IMG/VR virus record: IMGVR_UViG_3300013102_000083
Coordinates: 1-21,261 of that record
Origin: a virus
DNA: 21,261 nucleotides
Reading direction: 5' to 3' (one strand)
Each line of letters starts with the position of its first letter. Position 1 is the first letter of the stretch. Below are positions 1-19,097 of the stretch, piece by piece. The notes under the pieces were generated by a model. That model ran no database searches and was not told where the DNA came from. It saw only the letters and a list, made by a program, of their open reading frames with translations. The position numbers and the translations under genes were made by a program.

Positions 1-135
1 CGTTTCGCCAAGGCTTTAGCTAAATAATCTGAAAATCTGAAAATCTGAAACAAAACTGTCCTAAGTTATTGTTTTTAAAGACTTTTCTGTGATTCACGTT
101 TGTTTCAGATTATTCTAAGCCCTTGTTTTATAACG
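1..135. repeat. AT-rich island with tandem AATCTGAA units and an inverted partner
   Basis: This stretch is much richer in A and T than the rest of the window and has no convincing ORF. Three perfect head-to-tail copies of AATCTGAA occupy 26-33, 34-41 and 42-49. The last copy extends into AATCTGAAACAAA (42-54), whose exact reverse complement TTTGTTTCAGATT lies at 99-111, a 13-bp inverted repeat 44 bases apart. A looser direct repeat (CTAAG, a few bases, then TTGTTTT) recurs at 61-77 and 115-132. A TATAAC hexamer (129-134) resembles a -10 box but has no good -35 partner. The layout would suit a protein-binding or iteron-like site, or the boundary of a transcription unit. The function is not known. 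Confidence 0.5.
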
Positions 136-297
136 ACTTTCCCCAAAATCGGCGTCCCTTGGGATCACTCGACCTACACCGGGCCACCGGGCCACTAGGT
201 CCGTACGGTAGACTGGCCCTGCGTATGGTGTCCGGGCACTCAGCATCCGGGTCGCTCCTCGGCGGTCGCTTGGTCCCGGGCACCATGCGCTCTGGTC

Positions 298-314
298 TTG
301 GCATGATTCTTGCT
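298..314 (+). promoter_or_regulatory. Sigma-54 type -24/-12 promoter box, copy 1
   Basis: TTGGCATGATTCTTGCT matches the sigma-54 consensus YTGGCACG-N4-TTGCW except T for C in the -24 half, with the correct GG-to-GC spacing. The expected transcription start is near 325, upstream of the lysis and head genes. Use of such a box requires host RpoN and an AAA+ enhancer-binding activator. Confidence 0.55.
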
Positions 315-335
315 TAGGACCGGGCGCTCAGTGAC

Positions 336-352
336 TTGGCATGATCCTTGCA
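336..352 (+). promoter_or_regulatory. Sigma-54 type -24/-12 promoter box, copy 2
   Basis: TTGGCATGATCCTTGCA has the same single T-for-C departure from the consensus as copy 1 and the correct spacing between the GG and GC dinucleotides. It starts exactly 38 bases after copy 1. The expected transcription start is near 363. It is preceded by GTGAC (331-335), a half-site that recurs in the dyads downstream. Confidence 0.55.
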
Positions 353-365
353 TTGGACCATGCAA

Positions 366-450
366 TGACACAATCTGTCACAATCAGGCAGAGTGTGACG
401 TTCTTGGTCACTTGGCACGATCCTTGCAGAATGTGACGCGAAGGGTCACA
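366..450. promoter_or_regulatory. Cluster of three dyads around the third sigma-54 box
   Basis: Three inverted repeats lie within 85 bases: TGACA-N5-TGTCA at 366-380, GTGAC-N7-GTCAC at 395-411, and TGTGAC-N7-GTCACA at 432-450. The last two share the core GTGAC-N7-GTCAC and their cores start 38 bases apart. All use related TGAC/GTCA half-sites, as expected for binding sites of one dimeric regulator. The third covers the predicted start of transcription and could equally act as a small RNA hairpin. No regulator gene is in the window, so the protein is unknown. Confidence 0.45.
412..428 (+). promoter_or_regulatory. Sigma-54 type -24/-12 promoter box, copy 3 (full consensus)
   Basis: TTGGCACGATCCTTGCA matches every fixed position of the consensus YTGGCACG-N4-TTGCW with correct spacing, making it the best of the three boxes. 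The expected start is near 439, about 150 bases ahead of the muramidase start codon at 591. It is flanked by two GTGAC-N7-GTCAC dyads (395-411 and 433-449), so an activator or repressor could act right at this promoter. Confidence 0.65.
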
Positions 451-590
451 TGCCCCGGTTCTCAGGGCGCGGCGGGCGGTCCTTAATCCAGTACACGGAG
501 GAACTTTTCGGATAGTCAGTCAGCGCAGACCCACCGGGCCCTTGGAAGCGAGGATAACAAGGGAACCCACCACTCCACAGGAGCGAGAAG

Positions 591-1091
591 ATGTCCAGCT
601 TGTTTGACAACATCATCGCGAGGGTTCTCACCGCCGAGGGCGGCTACCTGAGCCCCCAAGAAGCTGCGAAGCAGGGAGACCCAGGAGGGGAGACGAATTG
701 GGGAATCAGCAAGCGGGCATATCCCGACCTGGATATCAAGAATCTCACGCGCGCGCAAGCGGTCGAGATATACCGCAACGATTACTGGAATCACATCGAC
801 GGCGACAACCTCCCTTCTGCCGTCGCGTTCGCCATGCTCGATGCCGCCATCAACTCGGGATGGACGAAATCGATCATGTGGCTCCAGAAGGCGGCGGGCG
901 TCGCAGACGATGGAAAATACGGTCCCATCTCCAAGGCAGCCGTGAAAAAGGCGGACGCAGCCGACCTCATGCTGGTCATAAGCGCCGAGCGCCTGGAATA
1001 CATGACCCGCCTGTCCAACTGGCAGACCAACTCGAGAGGCTGGGCCCGCAGGATCGCCCAGAATCTTCGCTACGGCGCGGAGGATAACTGA
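591..1091 (+). CDS. Endolysin, glycoside hydrolase 108-type N-acetylmuramidase
   Basis: This 166-residue protein is a phage lysozyme of the GH108 family, which cleaves peptidoglycan glycan strands. The catalytic glutamate is E16 in the family motif EGGY (16-19), followed by DPGGETNWGIS (30-40), which fits the family pattern DPGGxTxxGI. Residues about 92-160 fit the peptidoglycan-binding tail of the family, including SRGWARRI (148-155). No signal peptide is visible, so release to the periplasm needs a holin, and the next two genes are candidates. The start is supported by AGGAG at 579-583, seven bases before the ATG. The gene is first in the operon behind the sigma-54 array, and its stop codon overlaps the next gene's start by one base. 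Confidence 0.92.
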   Translation: MSSLFDNIIARVLTAEGGYLSPQEAAKQGDPGGETNWGISKRAYPDLDIKNLTRAQAVEIYRNDYWNHIDGDNLPSAVAFAMLDAAINSGWTKSIMWLQKAAGVADDGKYGPISKAAVKKADAADLMLVISAERLEYMTRLSNWQTNSRGWARRIAQNLRYGAEDN

Positions 1092-1504
1092 TGGCCGCCC
1101 CGGAAGTCGCCATTGCCTCCGTCGTCACTGCGTCGGCGGCCACTGTCGTCCCCAGCCTCTTCGGATTCGACTCCTACATCATCGCGTTCATCGGGGTGCC
1201 CTTCACGGTCGTGGGGATGGCAGCGGCAGGCAGCCTGATGAGCTTCGCGTTCGGAAGCCCGGAGCCCAAGCGCCTGAAGCTTTTGTTCACGGCGGGCGCA
1301 GCCACCCTGATCGGAGCGGCGGCGGTGACCGGCATCCCAGCCCTCCTTCACATCAACCAGATCGCGGAGCCAGCGCAGCCCGTGGCCGGATTCTTCTATG
1401 CACTATTCACCCGATGGGCCATGCCCGTATTCATCGACGTGTTGCCGATGTTGATCCGCCGGTGGTTGAACATTCCCGAGAAGAAGCCCGGAGACACGCC
1501 ATGA
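1091..1504 (+). CDS. Hydrophobic membrane protein, holin candidate
   Basis: This 137-residue protein has at least two clear membrane segments (about 29-50 and 64-86) and weaker hydrophobic stretches near 5-22 and 98-120. The C-terminal tail is short and charged (RRWLNIPEKKPGDTP). Size, hydrophobicity and position directly after the muramidase suit a holin, which would permeabilise the inner membrane for endolysin export, but I see no family-specific signature. The ATG at 1091 shares its A with the muramidase stop codon, so translation is probably coupled. The next gene overlaps its stop by four bases (ATGA). It could instead be a holin partner or antiholin to the following membrane protein. 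Confidence 0.65.
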   Translation: MAAPEVAIASVVTASAATVVPSLFGFDSYIIAFIGVPFTVVGMAAAGSLMSFAFGSPEPKRLKLLFTAGAATLIGAAAVTGIPALLHINQIAEPAQPVAGFFYALFTRWAMPVFIDVLPMLIRRWLNIPEKKPGDTP

Positions 1505-2136
1505 ATCACACGAACGCCCCCACCGACGACCGTCCGATCAAGCAGATGGTCTCGGAGAAAATCCAGCGCGCGAAGCTGCACTTCTGGCCCTTCGTGCTGA
1601 TGGTCTTCATGATCATGGTGTTCTACGTCGCCAGCGCCACGATCCCGCCCGGCTGGACCACCTTCTGGCTGAGCGCGGCGAGCCTTGCCGTCACGGCCAT
1701 CACGGCGCTGGCGCGGCTGAACGACCTCGGGTCGGAGTTCAGCAGCAAGCGGTGGCAGGTCCGCCGGTTCGGACTGATGGCGGTCGGCGCCGCTGCGATC
1801 GGACTGATGATGGAGCCGATAATCGTCTGGCTGAGCGGCCATCCGATGGTGGACTTCCCCACTTGGCGCGAGGTCATGCTCCGGTTCGGGTTCGCGCTCG
1901 TCTGGATCACCACGCCGCATATGCCTCCGTGGTGGAGGTACATCAGCGGTCAGTACAAGACGGCACGGCAGGCCTCCATCGCGGCCGCAGCGGCGGCGGG
2001 AGTGGTCGGGCTCGATCCGAAGGACGACGCGCCGGTGATGGTGCGGCCGATGCCGTATCGTGACCCCAAGGAACTACCGCCTGACGTGCCGGTCGAGCGG
2101 AGACACGGCGGCGACCGCCGCGAAATTGACCTCTGA
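1501..2136 (+). CDS. Multi-spanning membrane protein in the lysis block
   Basis: I place the start at the ATG of the ATGA overlap with the previous gene; an in-frame ATG exists at 1414 but would run 91 bases deep into that gene. The 211-residue product has about four hydrophobic segments (29-47, 53-72, 90-112 and 124-138), a basic loop between the second and third (SSKRWQVRR, 81-89), and a long charged, proline-containing tail (171-211) that is probably cytoplasmic. I do not recognise a named family. Position between the muramidase and the peptidase suggests a second holin-type or lysis-regulating protein. A role in superinfection exclusion is also possible. Confidence 0.6.
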   Translation: MNHTNAPTDDRPIKQMVSEKIQRAKLHFWPFVLMVFMIMVFYVASATIPPGWTTFWLSAASLAVTAITALARLNDLGSEFSSKRWQVRRFGLMAVGAAAIGLMMEPIIVWLSGHPMVDFPTWREVMLRFGFALVWITTPHMPPWWRYISGQYKTARQASIAAAAAAGVVGLDPKDDAPVMVRPMPYRDPKELPPDVPVERRHGGDRREIDL

Positions 2137-2146
2137 GGAGTAGAGC

Positions 2147-2959
2147 ATGAGCCTGCAACCGCGCAAGAACTTCGGCTGGATCCCGCAACTGCCCGATCAC
2201 CGGGACAAACTGCTGAAGACCATGATCCCGGCGGTGCCTGTCTATGAAGGACCGCCGCTGCTGGATCTGTCCATGGAGCATAAGTTCCACGTCATGGACC
2301 AAGGCAATCTGGGAACCTGCGTACTCCACGCCACGGCCAGCGCGTTGGAGTTCACCCACGCCTCGGTGACCAAGAAAACTCTCCGGCGCGAGCTTGACTT
2401 TCCGGTCAGTCGCCTGTTCCTCTACTACGAGGCCCGGAAGGCCATCGACACGCTCGGAGAAGACAGCGGCTGCAACATCCGCGACGCCATGCGCGTCCTC
2501 TACAACGTGGGCGGCCCGCGCGAGAGCGGGTGGAAGTACGACGAGAGCATGTTCACCGTCAAGCCACCGGCCGGGGCGTACCGGAGCGCGCCGTATCACA
2601 AGATCACGAGCTACCAGTCCGTCGGCGTCAACCTCGCCGAGATGCGAACGGCTCTGATCAACAAGATGCCAATCGTCATCGGCGTCAGCGTCTTCGATTC
2701 CTGGCCGATGGGGCTGGGCCAGCCGGTCGTTCCGATGCCGGGCAACTACGAGTCGATGATCGGCGGCCATGCCGTCCTGGTCGTGGGATACGATGACGTC
2801 CAGCGGCGCTTCAAGTTCCTGAACTCCTGGGGCGAGGAGTGGGGAATGGGCGGCTTCGGCTTCATTCCGTACGACTACGCGGCGGATCCCCGGTTCGGCG
2901 ATGACTATTGGGTCCTCACCGACACCGAGTACAAGGAGAACATGACGCCAAGCACCTGA
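2147..2959 (+). CDS. Papain-like C1 family cysteine peptidase
   Basis: The 270-residue protein has the full papain-type catalytic set: oxyanion Gln52 and nucleophile Cys58 in DQGNLGTC (51-58), His208 in GGHAV, and Asn226 in NSWGEEWG. The N-terminal GWIPQLPDHRD (10-20) resembles bacterial C1A peptidases without a long inhibitory propeptide. No signal peptide or membrane segment is visible, so it acts in the cytoplasm, is released at lysis, or is carried in the virion. GAGGAG immediately precedes the ATG at a usable distance. Peptidases of this family are uncommon in phage late operons. Substrate and role are unknown: head or tail protein processing, host takeover and degradation of cell-envelope proteins are all open. 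Confidence 0.88.
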   Translation: MSLQPRKNFGWIPQLPDHRDKLLKTMIPAVPVYEGPPLLDLSMEHKFHVMDQGNLGTCVLHATASALEFTHASVTKKTLRRELDFPVSRLFLYYEARKAIDTLGEDSGCNIRDAMRVLYNVGGPRESGWKYDESMFTVKPPAGAYRSAPYHKITSYQSVGVNLAEMRTALINKMPIVIGVSVFDSWPMGLGQPVVPMPGNYESMIGGHAVLVVGYDDVQRRFKFLNSWGEEWGMGGFGFIPYDYAADPRFGDDYWVLTDTEYKENMTPST

Positions 2960-5624: not shown

Positions 5625-7202
5625 ATGCCCACCGAGAAGTCCACCGTCGCAGGTCCGCAGGTCGACTATGTCCTGCCCGAAGTCATCAGCGCGATCCCAC
5701 TGTGGGCCACGGTGCGAGACTGCGTGGATGGTCAAGCGGCTATCAAGGCCAAGGGGACGACCTACCTCCCCATGCCGAACGTCGAGGACCAGTCCCCTGA
5801 GAACGTGGCCCGATACTCCGCCTACCAGACGCGCGGAATATTCGCGAACTTCACGGCGCGCACGTTGCAGGGCATGACCGGCACGGTGTTCAGCAAGGAC
5901 GCCGAGGCGACGCTCCCGAAGGAGCTCGAGATCATGCACGAGGATATCGACGGCGGCAGCGTCACGATGGACCAGCAGGCCAAGAAGGTCCTGAGCGACG
6001 TGATCTCCGTTGGCCGGTGTGGACTTTTGTCGGACTACCCGCCGGTCGACGGCAGGGTCAGCCGTCAGCAGGTCATCAGAGGCGAGATTCGGCCCACCAT
6101 CCAGTTCTACTTCGCCGAGAACATCATCAACTGGCGCACCACGATCATCAAGGGGCTGCGGAAGCTCACGCTGGTGGTACTGGCGGAGTCGAACACGGTT
6201 CGGGACGATGGCTTCAAGATAGAGACCGAGCGTCAGTACCGGGTGCTGCGCTTGACGAACGGCGTCTATACGACCCAGACTTACCAGAAGTCCACGACTG
6301 GCGTGTGGACCTCCACCGACCTTCGTACTCCGACGCAGGCCAGCGGGAAGCCGTTCGACTACATCCCGTTTGAGTTCATCGGCTCGGACAACAACGATCC
6401 GGGCATCGACTCGATCCCGCTGCTGGATCTGGCCAACCTGAACATCGGCCACTACCGGAATTCCTGCGACTTCGAAGAAATGGTGTTCCTGCTGGGCCAG
6501 CCCACGCCGATCTTCACTGGCTTGACCAAGGATTGGGTCGACACCGTCCTGGATGGCCGCATCGTCCTGGGCTCTAACGTCGCCGTCAGCTTGCCCGAGG
6601 GCGCGGCGGCGCAACTCCTGCAGATCACCGAGTCGGCGCTCGCGCTGGAGGCTATGGAACACAAGGAGCGTCAGGCCGTGGCGCTGGGTGCGAGACTGGT
6701 CCAGCAGCAGACCGTCCAACGAACCGCGACCGAGGCGGGTATGGAGGAGGCCAGCGAGACCTCCCTGCTGCTGTCGTCGGCCAAGAACGTCAACTCGGCC
6801 TACAAGAATGCGCTGAAGTCCGCTGCGCTGTTCGCCGGGGCCGCAGTGACCGATGACATCGGCTACGAACTCAACACTGACTTCGACATCCTGCGCCTCG
6901 ACTCGCCCGGTCGCGCGCAGCTCCTGGCAGAGTGGCAGCGTGGCGCGCTCACGTTCAGTGAGTACCGCAGCATCCTGCGTCGCGCGGGCGTGGCAACGCT
7001 GGACGACGCGCAGGCTCAGGCAGAGCTCGACGCGGAGGCGCAGCGCAACATGGAGAACATGGGCCTCAACCCGAACGTCCAGAACGATGGCGTCACGCCG
7101 GTTGACAAGAATGCTCCGCCCAACGCCGCCAATTCTCCTCTTGGTAGGGCAGTCCGTGGCACCGCCGCGCGCAAGGCCGCCAAGAAGGCGCTGAAGCAAT
7201 GA
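5625..7202 (+). CDS. Portal protein, DUF4055 type
   Basis: The 525-residue protein matches the DUF4055 group of phage portals in its N-terminal pattern (LPEVISAIPLWATVRDCVDG, then a conserved YLPMPN about 25 residues on), its length and its place between the large terminase and a gpF-like head protein. Portals form the dodecameric ring at the unique head vertex through which DNA enters and to which the neck attaches. The family call is from memory of its N-terminal pattern and gene order. An AGGAGTAA ribosome binding site lies just ahead of the ATG, and the stop overlaps the next start by four bases. The C-terminus is rich in Asn, Pro and basic residues and is probably flexible. Confidence 0.85.
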   Translation: MPTEKSTVAGPQVDYVLPEVISAIPLWATVRDCVDGQAAIKAKGTTYLPMPNVEDQSPENVARYSAYQTRGIFANFTARTLQGMTGTVFSKDAEATLPKELEIMHEDIDGGSVTMDQQAKKVLSDVISVGRCGLLSDYPPVDGRVSRQQVIRGEIRPTIQFYFAENIINWRTTIIKGLRKLTLVVLAESNTVRDDGFKIETERQYRVLRLTNGVYTTQTYQKSTTGVWTSTDLRTPTQASGKPFDYIPFEFIGSDNNDPGIDSIPLLDLANLNIGHYRNSCDFEEMVFLLGQPTPIFTGLTKDWVDTVLDGRIVLGSNVAVSLPEGAAAQLLQITESALALEAMEHKERQAVALGARLVQQQTVQRTATEAGMEEASETSLLLSSAKNVNSAYKNALKSAALFAGAAVTDDIGYELNTDFDILRLDSPGRAQLLAEWQRGALTFSEYRSILRRAGVATLDDAQAQAELDAEAQRNMENMGLNPNVQNDGVTPVDKNAPPNAANSPLGRAVRGTAARKAAKKALKQ

Positions 7203-8248
7203 GTAAGACACTCCAAGACATTGCGACCCGCTTTCAGGTTCTCCTGGAGCGGCTCAAGAGCGGCGAAGTCAAGGATTTCCAGAACGTTCTCGACGCCATC
7301 GAGAACGAGGTCACCAAGGAACTTGCCAGCGGCGAACTGACGCGCCTGAACAAAGCTCAGATCGACAAGCTGATCCTGCGCGTTCGGTCCAACAACGTGG
7401 AGGCGATGAACACGGCGGTCGACGACTTCATTGCTCGCCTCAAGGATATCTCGAAGTACTCCTATGATTTCGAGAACGAGGCGCTCAAGGATATCATCGC
7501 CGCCATCGTAGTCAAGAAGGCCACGCCAGCCAATCTATGGACCAGCGTTGTGGAGCGGCCCATGTCCGCCACCGGCGAGATACTGGTCCCGTGGATTCGC
7601 CGCTTGACGACCAGTGAGCTCCTGGCCGTCGAGGGTCTTCTGCGCCGGGGCTATGCCGAGAACTGGTCGAACCGCCAGATCACGCAGGCGCTACGCGGCA
7701 CGCGGGCCAATCGCTTCACGGATGGGCTGCTGATTCGCATGGGCCGCCAGAACGCGACCATCGTCCGCACCGCCATCCAGCACGTCAACTCAGTCGCGCG
7801 CCAGCGGGTCTGGGAAAACAACGACGACATCATCGAGGGATACAAGTGGGTATCAACTCTGGACAATCGGACTTCCGAACAATGCCGCGCGCTCGACGGC
7901 AAGGTCTTCAAAATTGGTCAGGGGCCGCTTCCGCCCATCCACCCAAACTGCCGGTCAACTACCGTTGCACAGATCAGCAGCGACTTCGACTTCCTCGACA
8001 AGGGAGCGACGAGGGCCGCAATGGGCGGACCCGTCTCCTCATCCGAGACTTACTACGAATGGTTGAAAAGCCAAAGCGCTGAGTTCCAAGATAGCGTGAT
8101 CGGCCCTACACGCGGCGCGCTGCTGCGCAACGGTGGCCTAAGTGCGGCAGAATTCGCTAGGCTGTCACTGAATTCTCTGTTCGAGCCTCTCACGCTCGAC
8201 GAGATGCGGAAACTCGCTCCTCTTGCATTCCGCAGGGCGGGCGTCTAA
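7199..8248 (+). CDS. Head morphogenesis protein, Mu gpF / SPP1 gp7-like
   Basis: A 349-residue minor head protein. The diagnostic stretch is residues about 217-252: YKWVSTLDNRTSEQCRALDG followed by PPIHPNCR. It contains the conserved W, D-x-R-T, C229, H248, C251 and R252 of the Mu gpF family, with a cysteine/histidine arrangement suggesting a bound metal. Family members attach to the portal inside the prohead and some are ejected with the DNA. Residues 1-110 are mainly helical. The ATG overlaps the portal stop codon (ATGA). A 48-base gap with two small hairpins separates it from the scaffold gene. Confidence 0.88.
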   Translation: MSKTLQDIATRFQVLLERLKSGEVKDFQNVLDAIENEVTKELASGELTRLNKAQIDKLILRVRSNNVEAMNTAVDDFIARLKDISKYSYDFENEALKDIIAAIVVKKATPANLWTSVVERPMSATGEILVPWIRRLTTSELLAVEGLLRRGYAENWSNRQITQALRGTRANRFTDGLLIRMGRQNATIVRTAIQHVNSVARQRVWENNDDIIEGYKWVSTLDNRTSEQCRALDGKVFKIGQGPLPPIHPNCRSTTVAQISSDFDFLDKGATRAAMGGPVSSSETYYEWLKSQSAEFQDSVIGPTRGALLRNGGLSAAEFARLSLNSLFEPLTLDEMRKLAPLAFRRAGV

Positions 8249-8249
8249 C

Positions 8250-8289
8250 GGGGCGGTGCCCCAACATCAACGAGCCGGTGGCTCAGGAG
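8250..8289 (+). promoter_or_regulatory. Two adjacent GGT-loop hairpins leading into the scaffold ribosome binding site
   Basis: GGGGC-GGT-GCCCC (8250-8262) and GAGCC-GGT-GGCTC (8272-8284) are two five-pair hairpins with the same three-base loop. The second runs straight into the AGGAG (8285-8289) that serves the scaffold start at 8297. There is no T run, so they are not terminators. They may mark RNA processing or tune translation of the abundant scaffold and capsid proteins. Confidence 0.4.
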
Positions 8290-8296
8290 AAATACC

Positions 8297-9040
8297 ATGC
8301 TTAAGAAGATCCTCGACAAGACCGCCTTTTCGGCACTCCACGAAGAACTGCAGAAGCTCTACAAGGTCGGCGATGACGGCAAGTATCACCTGCTGGTCGA
8401 AGACGACGACGGTGCGGAGCTGAAGCGTGCCAAGGACCACGAAGTCGGTCTCCGCAAGATCGCCGAGCAGGAGCGTGACGCTGCCCGTGCCGAGCTTGCA
8501 ACGGCCCAGGAGCAGGTGACCACGCTGACGGCAGCGCAGGGAACGAGCGTCCAGCAACTGCGCGAGCAGCTGACGGCGGAGCACACCCGCCTGATGAGCG
8601 AGGCCAACAAGAAGCACGAGAAAGAAGTGCAGGGCCTCAACGCCGCGATCAAGAAGACCTTCGTGGACGGCGTCGCTTCGGGGATCGCCAAGGACATCGC
8701 TGTCGATGACGGAGCGGCCGAACTCCTGACCGAAGTCCTGCGCAAGAGGCTGACCGTCGAGATCGTCAACGGCGAGCCGCTCACCCGTGTTCTTTCGCCC
8801 ACCGGCGAGGCATCGACCATGACGCCCGACGAGCTGAAGAACGAATACTTTACAAATGAAAAATATGCAGGCATAATGCGCGCGTCTGATGCCTCCGGCG
8901 GCGGTGCCACGGGAGGAAAGAAGGGAAGCGGTGCTTCCAAGCCGTTCGCTGAATGGGGCGACGCAGAGCGAGGCGCTCTCGCGAAGTCCAACCCGGCTGA
9001 GTTCCAGCGTCTGGTAGACCTGGAAAAAGCTGGAGCGTAA
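8297..9040 (+). CDS. Capsid scaffolding protein
   Basis: A 247-residue, highly charged protein lying immediately before the major capsid gene. Residues about 45-120 form a long predicted coiled coil, rich in Glu, Lys, Gln and Ala with heptad spacing (RKIAEQERDAARAELATAQEQ and onward). The C-terminal quarter has a glycine-rich linker (about 197-215) and then a short helical tail ending in VDLEKAGA. This is the architecture of assembly scaffolds, which line the inside of the prohead and bind the coat through the C-terminus. No protease motif is present, so scaffold removal would be by exit or by another enzyme. AGGAG lies eight bases before the ATG. Confidence 0.82.
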   Translation: MLKKILDKTAFSALHEELQKLYKVGDDGKYHLLVEDDDGAELKRAKDHEVGLRKIAEQERDAARAELATAQEQVTTLTAAQGTSVQQLREQLTAEHTRLMSEANKKHEKEVQGLNAAIKKTFVDGVASGIAKDIAVDDGAAELLTEVLRKRLTVEIVNGEPLTRVLSPTGEASTMTPDELKNEYFTNEKYAGIMRASDASGGGATGGKKGSGASKPFAEWGDAERGALAKSNPAEFQRLVDLEKAGA

Positions 9041-9073
9041 TCCCACCCACACCGCCAACTCTCGGAGCTTGTC

Positions 9074-10102
9074 ATGCCCTTCACGACTCTCGCCGACGTC
9101 TGGATCCCGGAAGTCTTCGCATCGTATCAGACCAATGATCCGGTGGAATCGACCGACTTCATCCAGTCCGGCATCGCCGTTGCATCCCCCGCCTTCCAGG
9201 ACCTCGCCAATGGCGCAGGCCGCATCACCACGATGCCGTTCTGGAATCCCCTCGACGCGTCCATCGAGCCGAACTACTCCAACGACGTCTACACGGACAT
9301 CGCCGAGCCGCAGAAGGTCAACACGGGCGAGATGGTTGCCCGTATCAGCGACCTGAACGAAGGTTGGAACTCCCCCGACCTCGTCACGCAGCTTTCCGGC
9401 CGTGATCCGCTGAAGATGGTCGCCCAGACCGTCGACACCTACTGGCAGGAGCAGTTCCAGCGCCGCGCCATCGCCACCGCCATCGGCGTCTACAATGACA
9501 ACGTCGCGGCGAACGCCGGTGACATGGTCGTGGACATCTCGGCCGCTGGCGCACCCGGCACCGTGACCGACGCCAACCGCATCAGCTCGGACGTGTTCAT
9601 CCGCGCTGCGTTCACGATGGGTGACCGCTACAAGAACATCGGCGCGGTCGCCATGCACTCCGTGGTCCTGCAGAAGCTGGTGTCGGAAGACCAGATCGTC
9701 TACACCCGTCCGTCGGGTGGACTCCTGGACGTCCCGACCTACCTCGGCAAGCGCGTGATCGTGGACGACGGAATGCCCATCGTCGGCGGCAACGGAACGA
9801 CCGTGGCCTTCAAGTATCTCGTGATCGCCTTCGCGGCGGGCGCGTTCGGATACGGCCGGGGTCAGGCGAAGGTCCCGCAGGAATTCCAGCGCGCGGCTGA
9901 CCGTGCCAACGGCGGCGGCACCGAGACGCTGTGGATCCGCAAGCGGTGGATCATCCATCCGTTCGGCTACTCGTTCAACTCGACGGTGATCACCGGCCCC
10001 GGCCTGTCCCCGACGTGGGCGGACCTCAAGGACGCGACCAACTGGACGCGTATCGCGAGCCGCAAGAACGTCCCGATGGCCTTCATGGTCGTCAACGCCT
10101 AA
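9074..10102 (+). CDS. Major capsid protein
   Basis: The 342-residue protein is the likely HK97-fold coat subunit. It follows the scaffold, as expected, and contains coat-like elements: an N-terminal arm, TYWQEQFQRRAIATAIGVYNDN (131-152; shown as TYWQEQFQRR and AIATAIGVYNDN) resembling the spine helix, AMHSVVLQKL as in many coat proteins, and a C-terminal domain with YLGKRVIVDDGMP. No N-terminal delta domain longer than about 40 residues is apparent, fitting a separate scaffold. The ribosome binding site is CGGAG at 9063-9067. The gene is followed by a GC-rich hairpin. The exact coat subfamily cannot be named with certainty. Confidence 0.87.
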   Translation: MPFTTLADVWIPEVFASYQTNDPVESTDFIQSGIAVASPAFQDLANGAGRITTMPFWNPLDASIEPNYSNDVYTDIAEPQKVNTGEMVARISDLNEGWNSPDLVTQLSGRDPLKMVAQTVDTYWQEQFQRRAIATAIGVYNDNVAANAGDMVVDISAAGAPGTVTDANRISSDVFIRAAFTMGDRYKNIGAVAMHSVVLQKLVSEDQIVYTRPSGGLLDVPTYLGKRVIVDDGMPIVGGNGTTVAFKYLVIAFAAGAFGYGRGQAKVPQEFQRAADRANGGGTETLWIRKRWIIHPFGYSFNSTVITGPGLSPTWADLKDATNWTRIASRKNVPMAFMVVNA

Positions 10103-10110
10103 CCGAAGCG

Positions 10111-10134
10111 CCCCGCCGCCGTAAGAGGGCGGGG
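10111..10134 (+). terminator. GC-rich hairpin after the major capsid gene
   Basis: CCCCGCC (10111-10117) pairs perfectly with GGCGGGG (10128-10134) across a ten-base loop, starting nine bases after the capsid stop. It is followed by TCCTCCTC, not a T run, so it may be a partial terminator or a structure that protects the 3' end of the capsid message. Confidence 0.4.
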
Positions 10135-10187
10135 TCCTCCTCGGGTAAGGTCATCCATCACGCTACAAAGCCAAGAGGAACACGATC

Positions 10188-10541
10188 ATGGCAACTCCCC
10201 GCGAAACGCGCCCGCCGAAGGATGGAGAGGGCGGCAACATGGGCCGCAAGAACGGTGGCGATGAAAACCCCGGTGCCATCACCGGCGGTGCACCGATCTC
10301 CGGCAAGAAGCCCGATGGCTCCGTCGAGAAGCCGAGCCGTGAAACGGCCCGCGCCAATGCGATGAAGGCGCCGACGGACAACGGCGACCGCGAAGCAATC
10401 CCGTCCGCGAAGCTGGACAAGGTCTACACCGCCGATTCCAAGGCACGGTGGGGCGATGACCAGCCGACCTTCGCCGACCTCCAGAAGGAGCGCGGCAAGA
10501 TCCAGGCCAGCATCGACAAGAAGGCCGCCAAGGAAGACTGA
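10188..10541 (+). CDS. Small hydrophilic protein between capsid and neck genes
   Basis: A 117-residue protein dominated by Gly, Lys, Pro, Asp and Asn in its first 80 residues, so probably disordered, with a short helical tail (TFADLQKERGKIQASIDKKAAKED, residues 94-117; only the start TFADLQKERGKI is quoted as the clearest helix). No known motif is seen. Its place directly after the major capsid gene, with its own AGAGGAA ribosome binding site and flanked by a hairpin on each side, would suit a head-associated or head-completion protein made in step with the coat. It is not recognisable as a decoration protein by fold. Function is inferred from position only. Confidence 0.6.
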   Translation: MATPRETRPPKDGEGGNMGRKNGGDENPGAITGGAPISGKKPDGSVEKPSRETARANAMKAPTDNGDREAIPSAKLDKVYTADSKARWGDDQPTFADLQKERGKIQASIDKKAAKED

Positions 10542-10575
10542 TTTACGTTCCACCCCGTAAGCCGTGTTGAACGTG

Positions 10576-10605
10576 CCCCGGCTTGCTCATGCAGGCCGGG
10601 GTTTT
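10576..10605 (+). terminator. Intrinsic terminator closing the head module
   Basis: The left arm 10576-10586 pairs with the right arm 10591-10601 over 11 pairs (seven GC pairs at the base, one G-U) around a TCAT loop, and is followed at once by TTTT (10602-10605). This is a textbook factor-independent terminator. It separates the capsid genes from the neck and tail genes. Since no strong promoter is obvious after it, downstream expression probably relies on read-through, which would lower tail gene expression relative to capsid. Confidence 0.82.
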
Positions 10606-10624
10606 CACTAAGTAAGGAACCGTC

Positions 10625-11128
10625 ATGGCCCTTGTCAAAGAAACCGGCGCAGGCGTGCCGAACGCCAACACCTATGCGGACGACGCCGATTTCACGGCGT
10701 GGGCCGAGGCTCGCGGGATTACCATCCCGGCCACGGTCGATGATCGCGAGAAGCTTCTGGTCCGGGCGATGGATTATCTCGAGACCCTAGGGTCGAGATA
10801 TCTCGGGTACAGACCCCAAGGCCAGGTCTTGCAATGGCCCCGGACGAACGTCACCCTGTACGGGTATGACTTTCCGACCGACAGCATTCCCCCGGAGCTC
10901 GTGAAGGCGCAGGTGGTCATCGCCGCTGCCGCCCAGACAATCGAGCTCTTCCCCAACGCTTCCGGCATGGCCCGCGTGGCGACTCACACCACCGTCGGTC
11001 CCATCACCATCGAGTACTCCTCGGCTGATGCCGAGCGCAGTCTCCGGCCGATCATCACGCAAGCCAATGCTCTGCTGCAAGTCCTCTTCGGGACCAGCGC
11101 GGGGCAACTGCGAGTGATCCGCGGATGA
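10625..11128 (+). CDS. Head-tail adaptor, DnaT-like
   Basis: A 167-residue protein whose N-terminus (NANTYADDADFTAWAEARG, then a run of helices with YLETLGSRYLGYRPQGQVLQWPR) matches the group annotated as DnaT-like single-stranded DNA binding proteins in phage structural clusters. In this gene position the group acts as the head-tail connector that docks under the portal; a real DNA-binding role is not implied. AAGGAA at 10613-10618 serves the ATG, and the gene is the first after the strong terminator. The stop overlaps the following start by four bases. Confidence 0.75.
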   Translation: MALVKETGAGVPNANTYADDADFTAWAEARGITIPATVDDREKLLVRAMDYLETLGSRYLGYRPQGQVLQWPRTNVTLYGYDFPTDSIPPELVKAQVVIAAAAQTIELFPNASGMARVATHTTVGPITIEYSSADAERSLRPIITQANALLQVLFGTSAGQLRVIRG

Positions 11129-11502
11129 GCGCCATCGACTACGCCGCCATCGCAGCTGAGGCCACGCAGGTCATCAAGGATGCTGGCAGCGTGCTGACTC
11201 TGGTGTCGACCGATGGCACTGACGTCTACGACCCTGTCACTGGCACGTCGACTCCGGCTGATCCTGGTGCCGAGACGCCATTCAACGGCGTCATGCTCAA
11301 TATCGACCAGAAGTACGCCCAGACGATTGGCACGCAGAACATCGAGCTCCAGGATCAGCTGATCTACATGGAGCCGAGCGTGGCCGTGCCGACCATCGGT
11401 GACAAGGTCCTGATCGCTGGCGAGACATGGGCGGTTGTCAACGTCGTCGTTATCTCACCCGCTGGCATCCCCGTGCTATTCATCCTGCAGGTGCGGCCGT
11501 GA
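11125..11502 (+). CDS. Head-closure / head-tail joining candidate
   Basis: A 125-residue protein with a helical N-terminus (about 1-22) and a beta-rich remainder, including GDKVLIAGETWAVVNVVVISPAG (93-115; quoted in part as GDKVLIAGETWAVVNV). This strand pattern is common in head-closure proteins of the HK97/SPP1 gp16 type, which form the ring between adaptor and tail. I see no exact family motif, so the call rests on fold pattern, size and its place between the adaptor and the gp10-like protein. It overlaps both neighbours by four bases (ATGA at the front, GTGA at the back), indicating coupled translation. Confidence 0.6.
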   Translation: MSAIDYAAIAAEATQVIKDAGSVLTLVSTDGTDVYDPVTGTSTPADPGAETPFNGVMLNIDQKYAQTIGTQNIELQDQLIYMEPSVAVPTIGDKVLIAGETWAVVNVVVISPAGIPVLFILQVRP

Positions 11503-11933
11503 GCGACGATCTCACCCTCGACTTCGGAAGGGACGTCGCCGCGTTCGCTGCAAAGACGAATCGGTCGATTGCGGAGGCGCATCGTCTCGTGTCGATTAAG
11601 CTGTTCAGCTCCATCATCCAGGATACGCCGGTCGACACCGGCGAGGCCGTGGGCGGCTGGATTCCGTCGATGGGGGAGCCAGTTAACGGGAAATCTGGCC
11701 GCCTAGGGCCGATTCCAGAGGGCGAACTGGCAGCAGCGGTGCGGGCCTTGCCGAGCAAGGTCGCATATCTGTCAAACAGCGTCGGCCATATCGATCTGCT
11801 GGAGTATGGCACGGCCAGCTACGGATTCTCGCCCAAGGCCCCTGAGGGCATGGTGCGGAGGAACATCGTGCGCTTCCGCCAGCTATTTCACGAGGCTTGG
11901 TTGGAAGCCCAGCAGGAGGCCAAGAAGTCATGA
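11499..11933 (+). CDS. Tail-completion protein, HK97 gp10-like
   Basis: The GTG at 11499 is chosen because it forms a GTGA overlap with the previous stop; an in-frame start at 11427 would overlap 76 bases. The 144-residue product carries the hallmark DTPVDTGEAVGGW (about 46-58), matching the PVDTG...W pattern of HK97 gp10 family neck and tail-completion proteins, and a helical start typical of the group. The C-terminal helix (MVRRNIVRFRQLFHEAWLEAQ, about 117-137) also fits. The protein probably sits at the top of the tail tube where it joins the head. The next gene starts inside its stop codon. Confidence 0.78.
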   Translation: MSDDLTLDFGRDVAAFAAKTNRSIAEAHRLVSIKLFSSIIQDTPVDTGEAVGGWIPSMGEPVNGKSGRLGPIPEGELAAAVRALPSKVAYLSNSVGHIDLLEYGTASYGFSPKAPEGMVRRNIVRFRQLFHEAWLEAQQEAKKS

Positions 11934-12358
11934 GCATGCTCGACGTCAACGCTGCGTTGGTGCAGGCGTACCGGGACATGGGCTTCAGTCTGCCCACCGG
12001 GTACGAAACCCGAGACTTCGCGCCACCGGCGAACTCCGCATGGGCCGCCGTGTTCAACATGCCCGCCTCCCGCAGCCCCGACACAATGGGTGACGGCGGC
12101 GACGATCTGTACAGCGGCCTGATGCAGATCGACTTCCACTCGGTGCAAAACTCTGGCACCGCCATTCTTTTGAACTACGCGGACAGCGTGGTCAATTTCC
12201 TGCCCGCTGGTAAGCGGGTGTCGTACAACGGACAGGATGTCCGGATTCGTCGTGTCGTCCCATCGCCGATCAGGAAGACCGAAGGTGGTTCAGGGTACGT
12301 TATCTCACTTTCCGTGTATTGGGAAGCGTGGATCGCACGCCCGGTCATTGGCCCATAA
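11930..12358 (+). CDS. Tail terminator protein
   Basis: Start at the ATGA overlap (11930); a second ATG two codons later is also possible. The 142-residue product resembles the phage tail-terminator group (DUF4128-like, functionally like lambda gpU): a helical start (LDVNAALVQAYRDMGF), then LMQIDFHS, a helix over ILLNYADSVVNFLPAGKRVSYNG, and final beta strands with SGYVISLSVYWEAW. Such proteins form a hexameric ring that stops tail-tube growth and receives the head. Position just before the tube gene agrees. Family call is by pattern and order. A 16-base gap with AGGAG leads to the tail tube gene. Confidence 0.7.
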   Translation: MSMLDVNAALVQAYRDMGFSLPTGYETRDFAPPANSAWAAVFNMPASRSPDTMGDGGDDLYSGLMQIDFHSVQNSGTAILLNYADSVVNFLPAGKRVSYNGQDVRIRRVVPSPIRKTEGGSGYVISLSVYWEAWIARPVIGP

Positions 12359-12374
12359 CTGCTAGGAGATCGTC

Positions 12375-13280
12375 ATGCCGCAGGCATCTGGTTCGCGTCA
12401 CAGCATGGGATACGTCCTGGAGACCGTGTACGGCACGACTCCGGCGACGCCCGCCTTCAAGGCAATCCGCCACAACTCCACTTCGCTCAACATGGGCAAG
12501 AATGCGTTCCAGTCGGGCGAGCTTCGCTCCGACCGGCAGATCGCAGACTTCCGGATGGGCACAACCTCCGTCGCCGGCAACTTCGTCGGTGAGCTGTCGA
12601 AGGACTCCTACGACGACTGGCTGGAAGCCGCGCTCGGTGGAACCTGGACGACCAACGTCCTCAAGACTGGCTTGCTCCGCAAGAGTTTCACCATCGAGCG
12701 CAAGTTCGGTGACATCGGACAATACTTCCGCTACACCGGCATGGAAGTCGATACCTTCCAGATCGGCGCGACCACCGGCGGCATCATCGGTGTCACGTTC
12801 GGCCTGATGGGCAAGGGCATGTCCCAGTCTGCGGCGGCCATCGTTGGCGCGACCTATCCGGCGGCGCCGACCACCAGCCCCATGGATGCTCTGACCGGTG
12901 TCCTGCAGGAAGGTGGCGTGACCAACGCGGTCGTCACCGAGGTCACCCTCAACCTGAACAACAACCTCAACCAGCGGTACGTCATCGGTTCGCCCGATTC
13001 GCTGGAGCCGAGCATCGGCCGGAGCAACGTGACCGGCACGATGACGGCCTTCTTCGAAGACGCCACGCTCTACGGCAAGTTCCTCACGAACACCAACTCG
13101 TCGCTTTCCTTCACCGCCAGCGACGGGACCAACAGCTTCGTCTTCCTGGTGCCGAAGCTGAAGTACACCGGCGGTGATGTCCCGGTTTCCGGTGAAGGTC
13201 CGGTGTCGATCTCGATGCCGTTCCAGGGTCTGTACGACTCGGTCACCGGCACGAACCTCCAGATCACAAGGGCTCCATAA
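12375..13280 (+). CDS. Major tail tube protein
   Basis: A 301-residue protein that matches the large phage tail-tube family by its opening (SRHSMGYVLETVYGTTPATPAFKAIRHNSTSLNMGKN; a typical YVxETxYGTTPxTP block at 12-26) followed by SGELRSDRQIADFRMGTTSVAGNF, the conserved block of this family. It would polymerise as hexamer rings around the tape measure. A second beta-rich half (about 160-301) ends with VTGTNLQITRAP. AGGAG at 12364-12368 is well placed for the ATG. High expression is expected, and only four bases separate its stop from the chaperone start. Confidence 0.88.
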   Translation: MPQASGSRHSMGYVLETVYGTTPATPAFKAIRHNSTSLNMGKNAFQSGELRSDRQIADFRMGTTSVAGNFVGELSKDSYDDWLEAALGGTWTTNVLKTGLLRKSFTIERKFGDIGQYFRYTGMEVDTFQIGATTGGIIGVTFGLMGKGMSQSAAAIVGATYPAAPTTSPMDALTGVLQEGGVTNAVVTEVTLNLNNNLNQRYVIGSPDSLEPSIGRSNVTGTMTAFFEDATLYGKFLTNTNSSLSFTASDGTNSFVFLVPKLKYTGGDVPVSGEGPVSISMPFQGLYDSVTGTNLQITRAP

Positions 13281-13284
13281 CGTC

Positions 13285-13731
13285 ATGAATACCAAGAACA
13301 CCAAGAGCGCACAGAAGAAGCAGGCTCCTCGCGAGTCGCAGCCTGCTACCGTGGGTGATTCCATGGATCGCTACAAGACCCGTGACAAGGCCAACGTGCC
13401 GAAGCGGGTGTTCCTGTATGACCCCGCCACGAAGGCGAAAACGGAAGACTGGCTGGACGTTCGCTCCAGCTTGTCCGACGATTTCCGCGAGGCTCGTGAC
13501 GAGGCCATGCAGCGAGCGTCGGAGATCGCGCAGATCGCCAACGACGGTGAACGCAAGGAAGCTCTGGACGATTCGCTCCGGGCGATGTACGCTTCCCTGA
13601 TCGCCGCCTGGAGCTTCGACAAGCCCTGCACGGAACAGAACAAGAAGCAGTTCTTGCTCGACGCCCCGCAGATCCGAAACATGGTGATGGCCGTCGCCGA
13701 CGACTCCGAGGCTTTTTTCGCGGGCGCCTAG
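13285..13731 (+). CDS. Tail assembly chaperone, G-like (0 frame)
   Basis: The start at 13285 lies just after the tube gene; an earlier in-frame ATG at 13174 would overlap it by over 100 bases. The 148-residue protein has a basic, disordered N-terminus and a helical body, as expected of tail assembly chaperones like lambda gpG, which coat the tape measure and recruit tube subunits before leaving the virion. Residues near the C-terminus (DDSEAFFAGA) are encoded by GAG GCT TTT TTC, a run suited to -1 slippage; see the next entry. The call rests on size, position between tube and tape measure and the slippery run. Confidence 0.8.
   Translation: MNTKNTKSAQKKQAPRESQPATVGDSMDRYKTRDKANVPKRVFLYDPATKAKTEDWLDVRSSLSDDFREARDEAMQRASEIAQIANDGERKEALDDSLRAMYASLIAAWSFDKPCTEQNKKQFLLDAPQIRNMVMAVADDSEAFFAGA
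13713..13719 (+). other. Programmed -1 frameshift site (TTTTTTC)
   Basis: T TTT TTC fits the X XXY YYZ slippery pattern in the reading frame of the upstream gene (GCT TTT TTC), ten bases before its stop at 13729. Slipping one base back reads CGC GGG CGC CTA GAC and stays open to 14030. This placement is the hallmark of G/GT tail chaperone frameshifting. The stimulating structure downstream was not confirmed by folding. Confidence 0.7.
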
Positions 13732-14030
13732 ACAGATTGGTGGCTTGGGCAGCGGCGGTGACAAAGCTGTCCAAGCCAGTCGAGGGCGGAACCCAATCCA
13801 AAATGGAACATCTGCGGGCTGTATGGAAGCAGACAGGAGTAAAGCCAACCGAGCTTGAACTTCCAGAAGTACCAAGAGAAATGCTATACCTCTGGAAGTG
13901 GCTGTGTGATTTGATCTACCCTATGTCGTTCAGTGAATTGAAAGCATGGGGCGAGCTCACCGGCAGGAAGTTAAGTCGGTGGGAGGTCGAGGTTCTAATT
14001 CGTCTGGACACGGTGAGATCAAATGGCTGA
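13719..14030 (+). CDS. Tail assembly chaperone, T extension (-1 frame)
   Basis: This reading frame is open from the slippery site to 14030 and has no good start of its own: the first candidates are TTG 13737 and GTG 13740, and there is no convincing ribosome binding site. It is most simply the T part of a G-T fusion of about 248 residues (145 from the first frame plus 103 here), like lambda gpGT, which bridges tape measure and tube. It contains a helix-rich domain with LYLWKWLCDLIYPMSFSELKAW. The stretch uses more A/T-ending codons than its neighbours. It overlaps the tape-measure start by eight bases. Confidence 0.72.
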   Translation, partial: RGRLDRLVAWAAAVTKLSKPVEGGTQSKMEHLRAVWKQTGVKPTELELPEVPREMLYLWKWLCDLIYPMSFSELKAWGELTGRKLSRWEVEVLIRLDTVRSNG

Positions 14031-16851: not shown

Positions 16852-17182
16852 TACCTTCGCGCCAACTCTTCCACCGCAGGAAGAGCCGACCGGCGACGTC
16901 AGCTACCGGCTAACTGAAAGCCAGTACGGTGATGGCTATCGCCAGATCGTCGGGGATGGCTTGAACCCCCGAGTTCAGAAGTGGCCGCTGATCTGGAAGG
17001 GCACGAACGCAGAAATCCAGCCCATCAAGGATTTCTTCGATGCTCACATCGGCGTGTCGTTCTATTACACTCCTCCCAATGGAACGCAGGGGCGCTACAT
17101 CTGCAAGGGCTACCAAGACATTCCGGCTGCTGCCGGCAACGGAACCGTTTCCGCAACACTTGAACAGACGTTTGCGCCATGA
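16844..17182 (+). CDS. Minor tail protein M-like
   Basis: Start chosen at ATG 16844, where TGGAGA lies seven bases upstream; the gene overlaps the tape-measure stop by eight bases. The 112-residue product matches lambda gpM-type tail-tip proteins in pattern: SYRLTESQYGDGYRQIVGDGLNP (21-43; the motif YGDGYRQ is the clearest) and PIKDFFDAHIGVSFYYTPP. In lambda, gpM caps the tail tip ring and is needed to start tube assembly. Its stop overlaps the next gene's start, keeping the M-L-K order of lambda. Confidence 0.82.
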   Translation: MVDTFAPTLPPQEEPTGDVSYRLTESQYGDGYRQIVGDGLNPRVQKWPLIWKGTNAEIQPIKDFFDAHIGVSFYYTPPNGTQGRYICKGYQDIPAAAGNGTVSATLEQTFAP

Positions 17183-18342
17183 CCACGACCAAGGGTGACG
17201 TTCAACTACTGGAGCCCGGCAACCTGATCGAGCTATTCGATCTGGACATCACGCCAATCGACCCGGCGGCGACGACCGAGCATTTCCACGGCTATCCCCA
17301 GGAAGCCAGCATCTGGTGGAAGGGAGTCGAGTACGTTCCGTGGCCGATCAAGGCCGAGGGCTTCCTCCGCACGGGCGACAAGCCGCCCACTCCCACTGTG
17401 ACCATCAGCAACATCGACGGCAGCGTGACTATCCTGTGTATGCAGTTCGATGATCTTGTCGGTGCAGTCTTGGTACGACGTCGGACGTTCGCCAAGTATC
17501 TCGACGCTGCCAACTTCGGAGGCGGCGCTGGCACGCCTGCTGTCCCGCCCACCTACGGGCCGGAGCTGATCACGAACAACACGTTCGCAGTCCTGACTCC
17601 GTGGGTGCAGCAGTCGGGCACGGTGACGTCTACGGGCACGGTGATGCGCGCCATGCGCGCGGGCGGCTCGCTGGGCCGTGGCCGCTACACGCTGAGCGGC
17701 CTGACCATCGGTGCCAACTACCTGCTGACGTTCGACCGCATCCTTGGAGCTGGCGGAGCGACCAATGGAACCGTGTCCATAGCGATCAGCGCTACCAGCG
17801 CGACCGGGGCCATTGCCACCGATACCGGGGCCACGACGTTGGGCCAGACGCTAGCGTTCACCGCAACGCAGACCACGCACTACGTTATGATGGACTCGGG
17901 TGCGGGATCCAACGGCGCGTATATGGACTACGACAACGTCTACTGCAAGCAAGTCATCGATCCTGGTAGCCCCGCCATCCCGGGCGGTGGATCGAACCCC
18001 ACGGCTGACCCGACCCAGGAATTTCCGAACGAAATCTGGTACGTCGAGCGCAAGGCCAGCGAAGATTCGCAGATGGTCAAGTTTGAGCTTTCGTCGGCCA
18101 TGGACTTCAACGGTGTCAAGCTGCCCCGGCGTCAGATCATTGCCAATCAGTGCTACTGGCAATACAGAAGCGCCGAGTGCGGCTATACTGGCGGCGCAGT
18201 AGCGGACATCAATGACAACCCGACGTCGGACATCAACCTCGACGCCTGCGCCAAGAAGGTACGTTCTTGCAAGTTCCGATTCGGTGATACTGGTGTGCTG
18301 AACTATGGCGGCTTCGCGGCCGCAGGGCTGATGCGTACATGA
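17179..18342 (+). CDS. Minor tail protein L-like with an inserted carbohydrate-binding-like domain
   Basis: The 387-residue protein has a lambda gpL-like frame: an N-terminal domain ending in RRTFAKYLDAANF (101-113), then, much later, EFPNEIWYVERK (281-292), LPRRQIIANQC (315-325) and SAECGYTGG. Four cysteines (325, 334, 357, 364) match the positions that in lambda gpL hold an iron-sulfur cluster. Lambda gpL is about 230 residues; the excess of roughly 150 lies at 114-276. It starts GPELITNNTFAVLTPW, ends YMDYDNVYC, and looks like a beta-sandwich of the CBM4/9 type between Gly/Pro linkers. Its role may be adhesion to surface glycans (inference). ATGA-type overlaps join it to M and K. Confidence 0.85.
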   Translation: MTTTKGDVQLLEPGNLIELFDLDITPIDPAATTEHFHGYPQEASIWWKGVEYVPWPIKAEGFLRTGDKPPTPTVTISNIDGSVTILCMQFDDLVGAVLVRRRTFAKYLDAANFGGGAGTPAVPPTYGPELITNNTFAVLTPWVQQSGTVTSTGTVMRAMRAGGSLGRGRYTLSGLTIGANYLLTFDRILGAGGATNGTVSIAISATSATGAIATDTGATTLGQTLAFTATQTTHYVMMDSGAGSNGAYMDYDNVYCKQVIDPGSPAIPGGGSNPTADPTQEFPNEIWYVERKASEDSQMVKFELSSAMDFNGVKLPRRQIIANQCYWQYRSAECGYTGGAVADINDNPTSDINLDACAKKVRSCKFRFGDTGVLNYGGFAAAGLMRT

Positions 18343-19097
18343 ACAAGAAACTACTAGAAGAGATTCATGCTCACATGATCTCGGAGTTTCCCCGCGAGGC
18401 TTGCGGCCTGCTGGTCGCCAACGGCCGGAAGCAGCGGTACGTCCCATGCCGGAATATGGCGACAAGTCCGAGCGAGCATTTTATCCTGAACCCCGAGGAC
18501 TACGCCGACGCCGAGGACAGCGGCAAGATCATCGGTATAGTCCACTCGCATCCGAACGAGGCCAGCCGCCCCAGCGATGCTGACAAGGCAAGCTGTGAGG
18601 CTACCGATCTCCCGTGGCATATATTCAGCGTCTACAAGATGCTAGACGAACCGGGCCAGCCGGTCAAGATCACGGGCGACACGGCCATCACCCCGACCGG
18701 CTGGGAAGCTCCGTTGCTCGGTCGTCAGTTCAGCTTCGGTACGCTGGATTGCTTCACGCTGCTGCGCGACTTCTACCATCGCGAGATGGGGATCGATCTG
18801 CCCGACTTCGACCGCACCGGAAAGGACAAGTTCTGGGAGCGCGGCGAAGACCTGTACATGGACAATTTCAAGAAGTTCGGATTCGTCGTGGCCGATGGCC
18901 CGATGGAAAAGGGCGACTTGATTCTCATGAACGTGCGGTCGCCAATCGTCAACCACGTCGGCGTGTTCCTGGGTGACGTGCATGGTGTCGGCAGCTACCT
19001 CTTCCTCCACCACCCCTACGGGGCTCTGTCCACCCGCGACGTCTACGGCGGATATTGGGCGGAGATCACCCGGTGTGTTCTTCGGTACGCAAAATGA
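18339..19097 (+). CDS. Tail assembly protein K-like, JAMM peptidase plus NlpC/P60
   Basis: A 252-residue two-domain protein as in lambda gpK. The N-terminal JAMM (Mov34/MPN) domain has Glu20 in REACGLL and the metal motif HSHPNEASRPSD (69-80; H69, H71, D80). The C-terminal NlpC/P60 domain has its catalytic Cys138 in GTLDCFTLL and His206 in NHVGVFLGD, with HHPYG (224-228) near the third position. In such phages the protein is a tail-tip component or assembly protease that can cut peptidoglycan during DNA entry. Both active sites look intact. It starts within the L stop codon and overlaps the first I gene by four bases. Confidence 0.92.
   Translation: MNKKLLEEIHAHMISEFPREACGLLVANGRKQRYVPCRNMATSPSEHFILNPEDYADAEDSGKIIGIVHSHPNEASRPSDADKASCEATDLPWHIFSVYKMLDEPGQPVKITGDTAITPTGWEAPLLGRQFSFGTLDCFTLLRDFYHREMGIDLPDFDRTGKDKFWERGEDLYMDNFKKFGFVVADGPMEKGDLILMNVRSPIVNHVGVFLGDVHGVGSYLFLHHPYGALSTRDVYGGYWAEITRCVLRYAK

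Follow-up and report, generated by a model that had tools for sequence, protein, structure and literature searches.

Sigma-54 promoters need an ATP-driven activator to fire, and the consensus used here for scoring them has Y at position -27 and W at -11. A phage precedent, invoked in the initial annotation of the locus described here, is phage YuA, whose record (NC_010116) marks three promoters among the particle genes with the remark '-24/-12 consensus sequence, high activity (2000 MU)'. The comparison is a loose one: the best boxes in the three marked stretches agree with the consensus at 10, 8 and 11 of 13 positions and lie on the minus strand, whereas the window (i.e., the whole virus record of 21,261 bases analysed here) carries three successive 13/13 boxes upstream of its lysis genes. 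No comparable box of at least 12/13 occurs in the first 50 kb of YuA (1-50000), in phage AXL_3 or in positions 1-41421 of the Pseudoxanthomonas phage PW916. The link to YuA runs through PW916, which is listed with it in the Mesyanzhinovviridae; YuA itself is absent from the best 40 of 624 large-terminase matches to the window. By capsid the nearest named phages are AXL_3 (56.6%) and PW916 (56.1%; large terminase 58.6%), and by large terminase BcepGomr (65%), which has one 12/13 box within its lysis genes (L216 41822). A comparable promoter at a comparable place was not seen in YuA and the relatives, the junctions of the close relatives L390 and L391 included. Open-literature searches returned no sigma-54 box arrays in phages among the matches listed, and the words "sigma", "promoter" and "RpoN" are absent from the main texts of PMC11946847 (Mesyanzhinovviridae, 2025) and PMC5418858.

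A pattern scan of the whole 21,261-base record confirmed the 16-mer TTGGCAYGATYCTTGC on the plus strand at 298, 336 and 412, with the spacings of 38 and 76 bp that had been reported for it; there is no fourth plus-strand copy and none on the minus strand, and the reversed pattern has 0 matches. Measured against YTGGCACG-N4-TTGCW, the box at 412 has 0 mismatches, as the initial annotation had claimed, and the boxes at 298 and 336 have one each; all three reach 13/13 once Y is allowed for that C (YTGGCAYG-N4-YTGCW). Like bacterial RpoN promoters, they share GG and GC dinucleotides ten bases apart (within TGGCAYG-N4-TTGCW), Y at -27 and A/T at -11. Shuffling speaks against chance: first-order shuffles of the window yield 0.025 boxes of 13/13 each, and 0 of 400 contained, inside a 150 bp span, three boxes that scored 12/13 or better. 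The description of the region as a 38-bp tandem array was upheld only in part. Self-similarity is 0.53 at a shift of 38 and 0.50 at 76, the top two values among shifts 5 to 89, but 298-449 is absent from the arrays that Tandem Repeats Finder reports at score 30, and the degenerate unit proposed at 374 agrees with the box at just 6 of 16 positions (counted by eye), palindromes being found there instead. The spacers have diverged between the boxes, whereas in a plain tandem repeat they would be as alike as the boxes themselves.

Table 1 Features of the window and position of a conserved small gene in four close relatives
Feature	Position	Strand	Remark
AT-rich stretch with three AATCTGAAA repeats and inverted TTTCAGATTATT	1..150		origin-like (inferred)
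Sigma-54 box 1, TTGGCATGATTCTTGCT	298..314	+	predicted transcription start ~325, inferred from the -12 position
Sigma-54 box 2, TTGGCATGATCCTTGCA	336..352	+	predicted start ~363
Palindrome ATGAC-N7-GTCAC	365..381		candidate operator
Palindrome GTGAC-N7-GTCAC	395..411		ends directly before box 3
Sigma-54 box 3, TTGGCACGATCCTTGCA	412..428	+	exact consensus; predicted start ~439
Palindrome GTGAC-N7-GTCAC	433..449		spans predicted start of promoter 3
AGGAG, ribosome binding site of lysozyme gene	579..583	+	by eye
Lysozyme, glycosyl hydrolase 108 family	591..1091	+	E 3.7e-22
Two overlapping hydrophobic-protein genes	1091..2136	+	1091-1504 and 1501-2136; holin-like by eye only
Papain-family (C1) cysteine protease gene	2147..2959	+	E 6.9e-10
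Small terminase subunit	3637-4113	+	profile match
Large terminase subunit	4110-5615	+	named by tblastn
Virion genes	5625..21261	+	run off record end; DUF4055 (portal position), Mu-F-like, capsid
Conserved small protein gene, L488	275-655	+
Conserved small protein gene, L124	5363-5800	minus
Conserved small protein gene, L125	5643-6002	minus
Conserved small protein gene, L390	4299-4664	minus

The boxes stand 293 to 163 bp upstream of the lysozyme start and point at the lysozyme, so that in the window they have the place and direction expected of sigma-54 promoters, which the wider array class described below has only partly. Their claimed position ahead of lysis and virion genes is likewise correct (Table 1): a second gene caller puts all genes from 591 onward on the plus strand. 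The two hydrophobic proteins have no Pfam match, and the scaffold and tail names within 5625..21261 were assigned by eye. A papain-like C1 protease gene, which in the window lies within the lysis region, also occurs in the relatives L389 and L390 (52%). In the tail region the genes 19094-19786 and 19773-20480 encode clearly similar proteins (by eye), a tandem gene duplication. A search for sigma-70-type promoters had 0 matches in window positions 1-3000, a weak result given that shuffles lead one to expect only 0.8, and Rfam returned for positions 1-700 a single match, to a microRNA family, which we take as chance.

The simplest account for the window is a multi-site late promoter, which fits how the boxes are oriented and how far they stand from the lysozyme gene, the presence of a ribosome binding site at 579 and the absence of sigma-70-type matches. 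We regard the chances as evenly balanced that the three boxes are host E-sigma54 sites forming such a promoter, fired by a host activator. Host sigma-54 polymerase would wait at each box in an inactive closed complex until a host enhancer-binding activator fired it, and the fired array would then drive the operon of lysis and virion genes beginning at 591, thereby tying late gene expression to the regulatory state of the host. The full consensus fit and the shuffles speak for a late promoter, as do several observations detailed below: the clustering of strong boxes at one junction in close relatives, box directions that follow a conserved small gene in three of them and are largely shared in the AT-hook group, and the mostly intergenic position of arrays of this kind.

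The sequence between and around the boxes is rich in further elements. In 291-590, GTGAC/GTCAC is found 6 times (0.76 expected), and the palindromes that it forms among the boxes probably serve as operators for a regulator, of phage or host origin, that gates the array. In the relatives, RTGAC-N7-GTCAC has one near-match, in L124 (4193), and none in seven others. An imperfect 16-bp inverted repeat (arms 221-236 and 275-290, with 38 bp between them) lies just 5' of the boxes. GAAAC-rich AT stretches (identified by eye) recur at the same place as the AT-rich stretch of the window in L124, L125, L390, L391 and L488, and a replication origin is therefore plausible for window positions 1-150.

The nearest virus contigs (terminase identity 71-74%) are L389, L390, L124, L125, L391 and L392. 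We compared the replication-lysis junction in the window, L390, L124, L125, L391 and L392 (the contig seen there as L488); L389 was excluded because it starts behind this junction, and the window, L391 and L488 are truncated on the left. In the six sequences the junctions (14,301 bases) hold all 12 boxes that score 12/13 or better, and the other 83,530 bases 0; a shuffle rate of 0.0125 per kb leads one to expect 0.18 in the junctions. Since boxes within one array are not independent, the 12 represent five separate events, the window included. Number and direction vary, however. The junction of L125 has two strong boxes and that of L124 one, all on the minus strand and pointing away from the lysis gene, while L488 has five plus-strand boxes that form a perfect 25-bp repeat and face a different gene lying further upstream, and one extra minus-strand box. 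L390 and L391 have no box of at least 12/13 at the junction. Strong boxes beside and facing the lysis gene thus occur in the window only, which together with the two of five close relatives that have no junction box speaks against a late promoter, and so much change between near relatives counts against a switch that is essential.

A small basic protein whose front is rich in lysine and alanine and whose end is conserved, perhaps a DNA-binding regulator, recurs among these relatives (Table 1); its four proteins have no PHROG match. Boxes lie upstream of its gene and in its direction at ~144 bp in L488, at 270 bp in L124 (assuming the likely start 5800) and at 1,065 bp in L125. They keep the direction of the gene even though the gene is inverted (five on the plus strand in L488, one and two on the minus strand in L124 and L125). 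Three of the six copies (L529, L531, which equals L390, and L533) have no upstream box in the direction of the gene, and this, like the extra minus-strand box of L488, counts against a late promoter.

Among 86 wider large-terminase loci (1.11 Mb), eight have a 13/13 box or a pair including one of at least 12/13; three shuffles of this set gave 2 and 1 in all. These include L408 and L461, with one 13/13 box each, and L128, with a pair 15 bp apart. In three of the eight, L428, L435 and L448, the 13/13 boxes were set aside because they lie within an apparent coding frame (judged by eye). Due to this low count and the seemingly coding boxes, the box array is not a standing feature of the large-terminase relatives, which is a further point against the late promoter.

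Outside these relatives, tandem boxes form a wide class in phage fragments. The search pattern TGGCAYG-N4-TTGC, N5-35, TGGCAYG-N4-TTGC, which allows gaps of 20-50 bp, matched at least 120 stretches in IMG/VR, and a complete scan with the same pattern read backwards matched 2. Three boxes with 9-13-base gaps occur in 75 stretches (complete scan), of which 13 or 14 are also among the pair-pattern stretches; from this low recurrence, we roughly estimate that the pair scan probably covered about a fifth of IMG/VR. Perfect boxes collected without selection for tandems behave similarly: among the matches listed, 42 of 122 are accompanied within 80 bp by another same-strand box that scores at least 12/13, 20 have such a partner on the opposite strand and 47 one on either strand, with only identical sites removed from this set. 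In 257 Gb of prokaryote genomes, by contrast, the tandem pattern has 73 matches, and the positions outside the search pattern follow the consensus less well there: comparing 87 non-redundant virus arrays (211 boxes) with 72 prokaryote matches (166 boxes), Y at -27 is found in 185/211 vs. 110/166 boxes and A/T at -11 in 191/211 vs. 101/166. Because these unsearched positions follow the consensus, and because of the junction clustering in the close relatives, we consider the boxes very probably to be recognition sites of sigma-54 holoenzyme, judging from sequence. Virus-like arrays also appear among the prokaryote matches in L336, L362, L338 (Chitinophagales MAG UW2SPNA023) and L354 (Methylococcaceae MAG), which may be phage contigs binned into genomes.

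The environmental phage arrays (L494, L503, L474, L121, the L246 group and others) resemble the window in being intergenic rows of near-consensus boxes, but they have more boxes, often tighter spacing, and boxes on both strands in 27 of 89 cases. The largest hold 15 (L503), 11 (L494), 10 (L474) and 8 (L490) boxes. The fifteen of L503 (5434-5948) stand in a row between two opposite-strand genes, the longest array seen. Long palindromes arise in L121 (3660-3780), where each of three 43-bp units has a plus box and a minus box turned towards one another. The first gap of an array measures 20-23, 24-29, 30-34 or 35-50 bp in 0, 35, 2 and 49 cases, respectively, in viruses vs. 16, 19, 6 and 30 in prokaryotes (p 9e-6). 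A raw histogram hinted at helical phasing, with peaks at 26, 36, 47 and 57 bp, but no significant 10.5 bp period was left once similar arrays were removed (n 61, R 0.17, p about 0.17), and helical phasing of the repeats was dropped. Among cultured phages, BLAST with array DNA, an insensitive route to such arrays, yielded a single perfect box in each of three: Shewanella phage 1/40 (scanned whole), Vibrio phage Ceto and Pseudomonas phage Lana (3-5 kb of each scanned); Ceto has an additional 12/13 box on the other strand, and the regions of FLC9 and SU503 have no boxes.

Rows of this kind could in principle be functionless, an ordinary tandem duplication having copied one sigma-54-like sequence by chance. 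The perfect 25-bp repeat of L488 has this appearance, and neighbouring spacers are at least 90% identical in 5% of comparisons in the virus pair set and in 25% in the triple set. On average, however, the identity of neighbouring spacers is only 0.39 in the virus pair set (0.52 in the triples, 0.51 in prokaryotes) while the boxes are intact; L494 keeps 11 boxes at 26-27 bp despite diverged spacers, and the reversed pattern has 2 matches against at least 120. We therefore judge mere duplication to be very improbable.

For the genomic context of the arrays, counts were taken from the second gene caller, which recovers the genes of the window; the first, which picked shadow frames in GC-rich DNA, the window included, supplied the PHROG and Pfam neighbours. 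Of 136 non-redundant arrays, 43 are at a contig end, 4 inside genes and 89 placed between genes. Without removal of similar arrays, 3 of 106 virus arrays lie inside called genes vs. 17 of 73 in prokaryotes. The 89 placed arrays comprise 54 between divergent and 4 between convergent genes, 10 that follow and 19 that oppose one-directional genes (p 0.14) and 2 ties. When only arrays with boxes on one strand are counted, 16 oppose and 5 follow the one-directional genes (p 0.027), and this more frequent opposition speaks against a late promoter.

The neighbouring genes also bear on the possibility that the boxes are packaging or replication sites, i.e., small-terminase or initiator iterons that resemble sigma-54 boxes. 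PHROG assignment through the first, poorer gene caller was obtained for 66 of 94 upstream and 83 of 142 downstream entries, and terminase is the commonest named family on either side of the arrays among the best 25 of 53 and 25 of 70 families; moreover, the array of the window adjoins the AT-rich repeat region. Yet the motif recurs beside terminases of several PHROG families and its unsearched positions follow sigma-54, whereas pac or cos sites would be terminase-adjacent and group-specific in sequence. The array of the window lies 3.2 kb from the small terminase gene, and that of L488 about 1.7 kb from the AT-rich region (by eye). On these grounds we think packaging or replication sites improbable, though less so than a chance duplication.

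A gene of AT-hook type adjoins the box region in 75 loci, all of them fetched for holding boxes. It encodes a protein of ~128 residues (L258 1198-1584 and 74 other loci) at the head of a terminase operon, and a search of 50,697 cultured phage records at E 1e-5 brought up no relative of the L258 protein. Box direction is away from this gene in 65 loci and towards it in 5, with none in 4 and one tie; in the 35 distinct regions the numbers are 28, 3, 3 and 1. This agrees with directional sites, as expected. In the loci of this group that were scanned (L229, L246, L263), the AT-hook side has terminase, portal, capsid and tail fibre genes, and the boxes face the side of DNA polymerase, primase-helicase and thymidylate synthase. 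The arrays of this group thus face the replication arm rather than virion genes, in which they differ from the window. In L273, six boxes face the large terminase gene instead, and the array class is not bound to late genes. Sigma-70-like forward matches occur in 23 of the 35 AT-hook regions vs. 19.2 in shuffles, several of them being the boxes themselves; in some regions such a match lies behind the array. The RpoN-dependent late switch put forward in the initial annotation consequently survives in part: sigma-54 sites are very probable, but a general switch finds no support, since relatives vary and the AT-hook arrays face replication genes.

Searches for an activator and for sigma-54 in the virus records gave no candidate. 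The sigma-54 activator domain PF00158 was found in 0 of 50 + 37 virus records, 82 of which hold an array since they were chosen from those found, and which may be incomplete; the control was positive in 14 of 14 genomes. Sigma-54 itself (PF04552) was found in 0 of 50 virus records, where the control was positive in 6 of 14. Phage-type RNA polymerase (PF00940) was found in 0 of 48, but as the control was positive nowhere this count carries no weight. The missing PF00158 activator speaks against a late promoter; a host activator for the arrays is possible, with the palindromes at 365-449 of the window as candidates for its binding site.

The same absence is what one would expect if the arrays held host sigma-54 polymerase in closed complexes that do not fire. 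Boxes packed about as tightly as the protein permits would titrate the scarce holoenzyme as phage DNA multiplies, and host sigma-54 genes for stress and nitrogen responses would be silenced. Up to 15, 11, 10 and 8 boxes at one place, the box pairs on opposite strands (20 of 122 perfect boxes among the matches listed; 27 of 89 placed arrays, alternating in L121), the opposition to one-directional genes in 16 of 21 one-strand arrays and virus gaps distributed as if neighbours must be filled simultaneously are all in keeping with such sequestration. It leaves unexplained the conserved direction in the AT-hook group (28 of 31 distinct majority regions), which would be needless in a sponge, although shared descent may account for it; in addition, divergent genes flank 54 of the 89 placed arrays, a setting in which promoters sit, and the window has just three boxes, all facing the late operon. 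Sequestration, the main rival to the late promoter, appears rather unlikely to us, but for at least part of the array class it draws support from the dense packing, from boxes on both strands, from arrays that run against their genes and from the absence of an activator in the records searched. The promoter and sponge readings may also both hold, as a loaded promoter row would act as a sponge as well.

For the class as a whole, we tentatively propose, at somewhat less than even probability, that a wide range of phages carries landing strips for sigma-54 holoenzyme: rows of consensus boxes on which neighbouring polymerases would fit side by side, either loading a phage operon for a synchronous start on the signal of a host activator or sequestering the sigma-54 polymerase of the host. 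If true, the fate of these phages would be coupled to host sigma-54 circuitry through sites provided in large numbers by a phage that has no activator itself. As sigma-54 promoters cannot fire without an activator, reliance on them makes the phage programme depend on the physiology of the host. Near-perfect boxes in rows, found with different terminases and rare in bacterial genomes, suggest an overlooked coupling of phage timing to the stress or nitrogen state of the host, or, alternatively, a DNA decoy against a host sigma factor.
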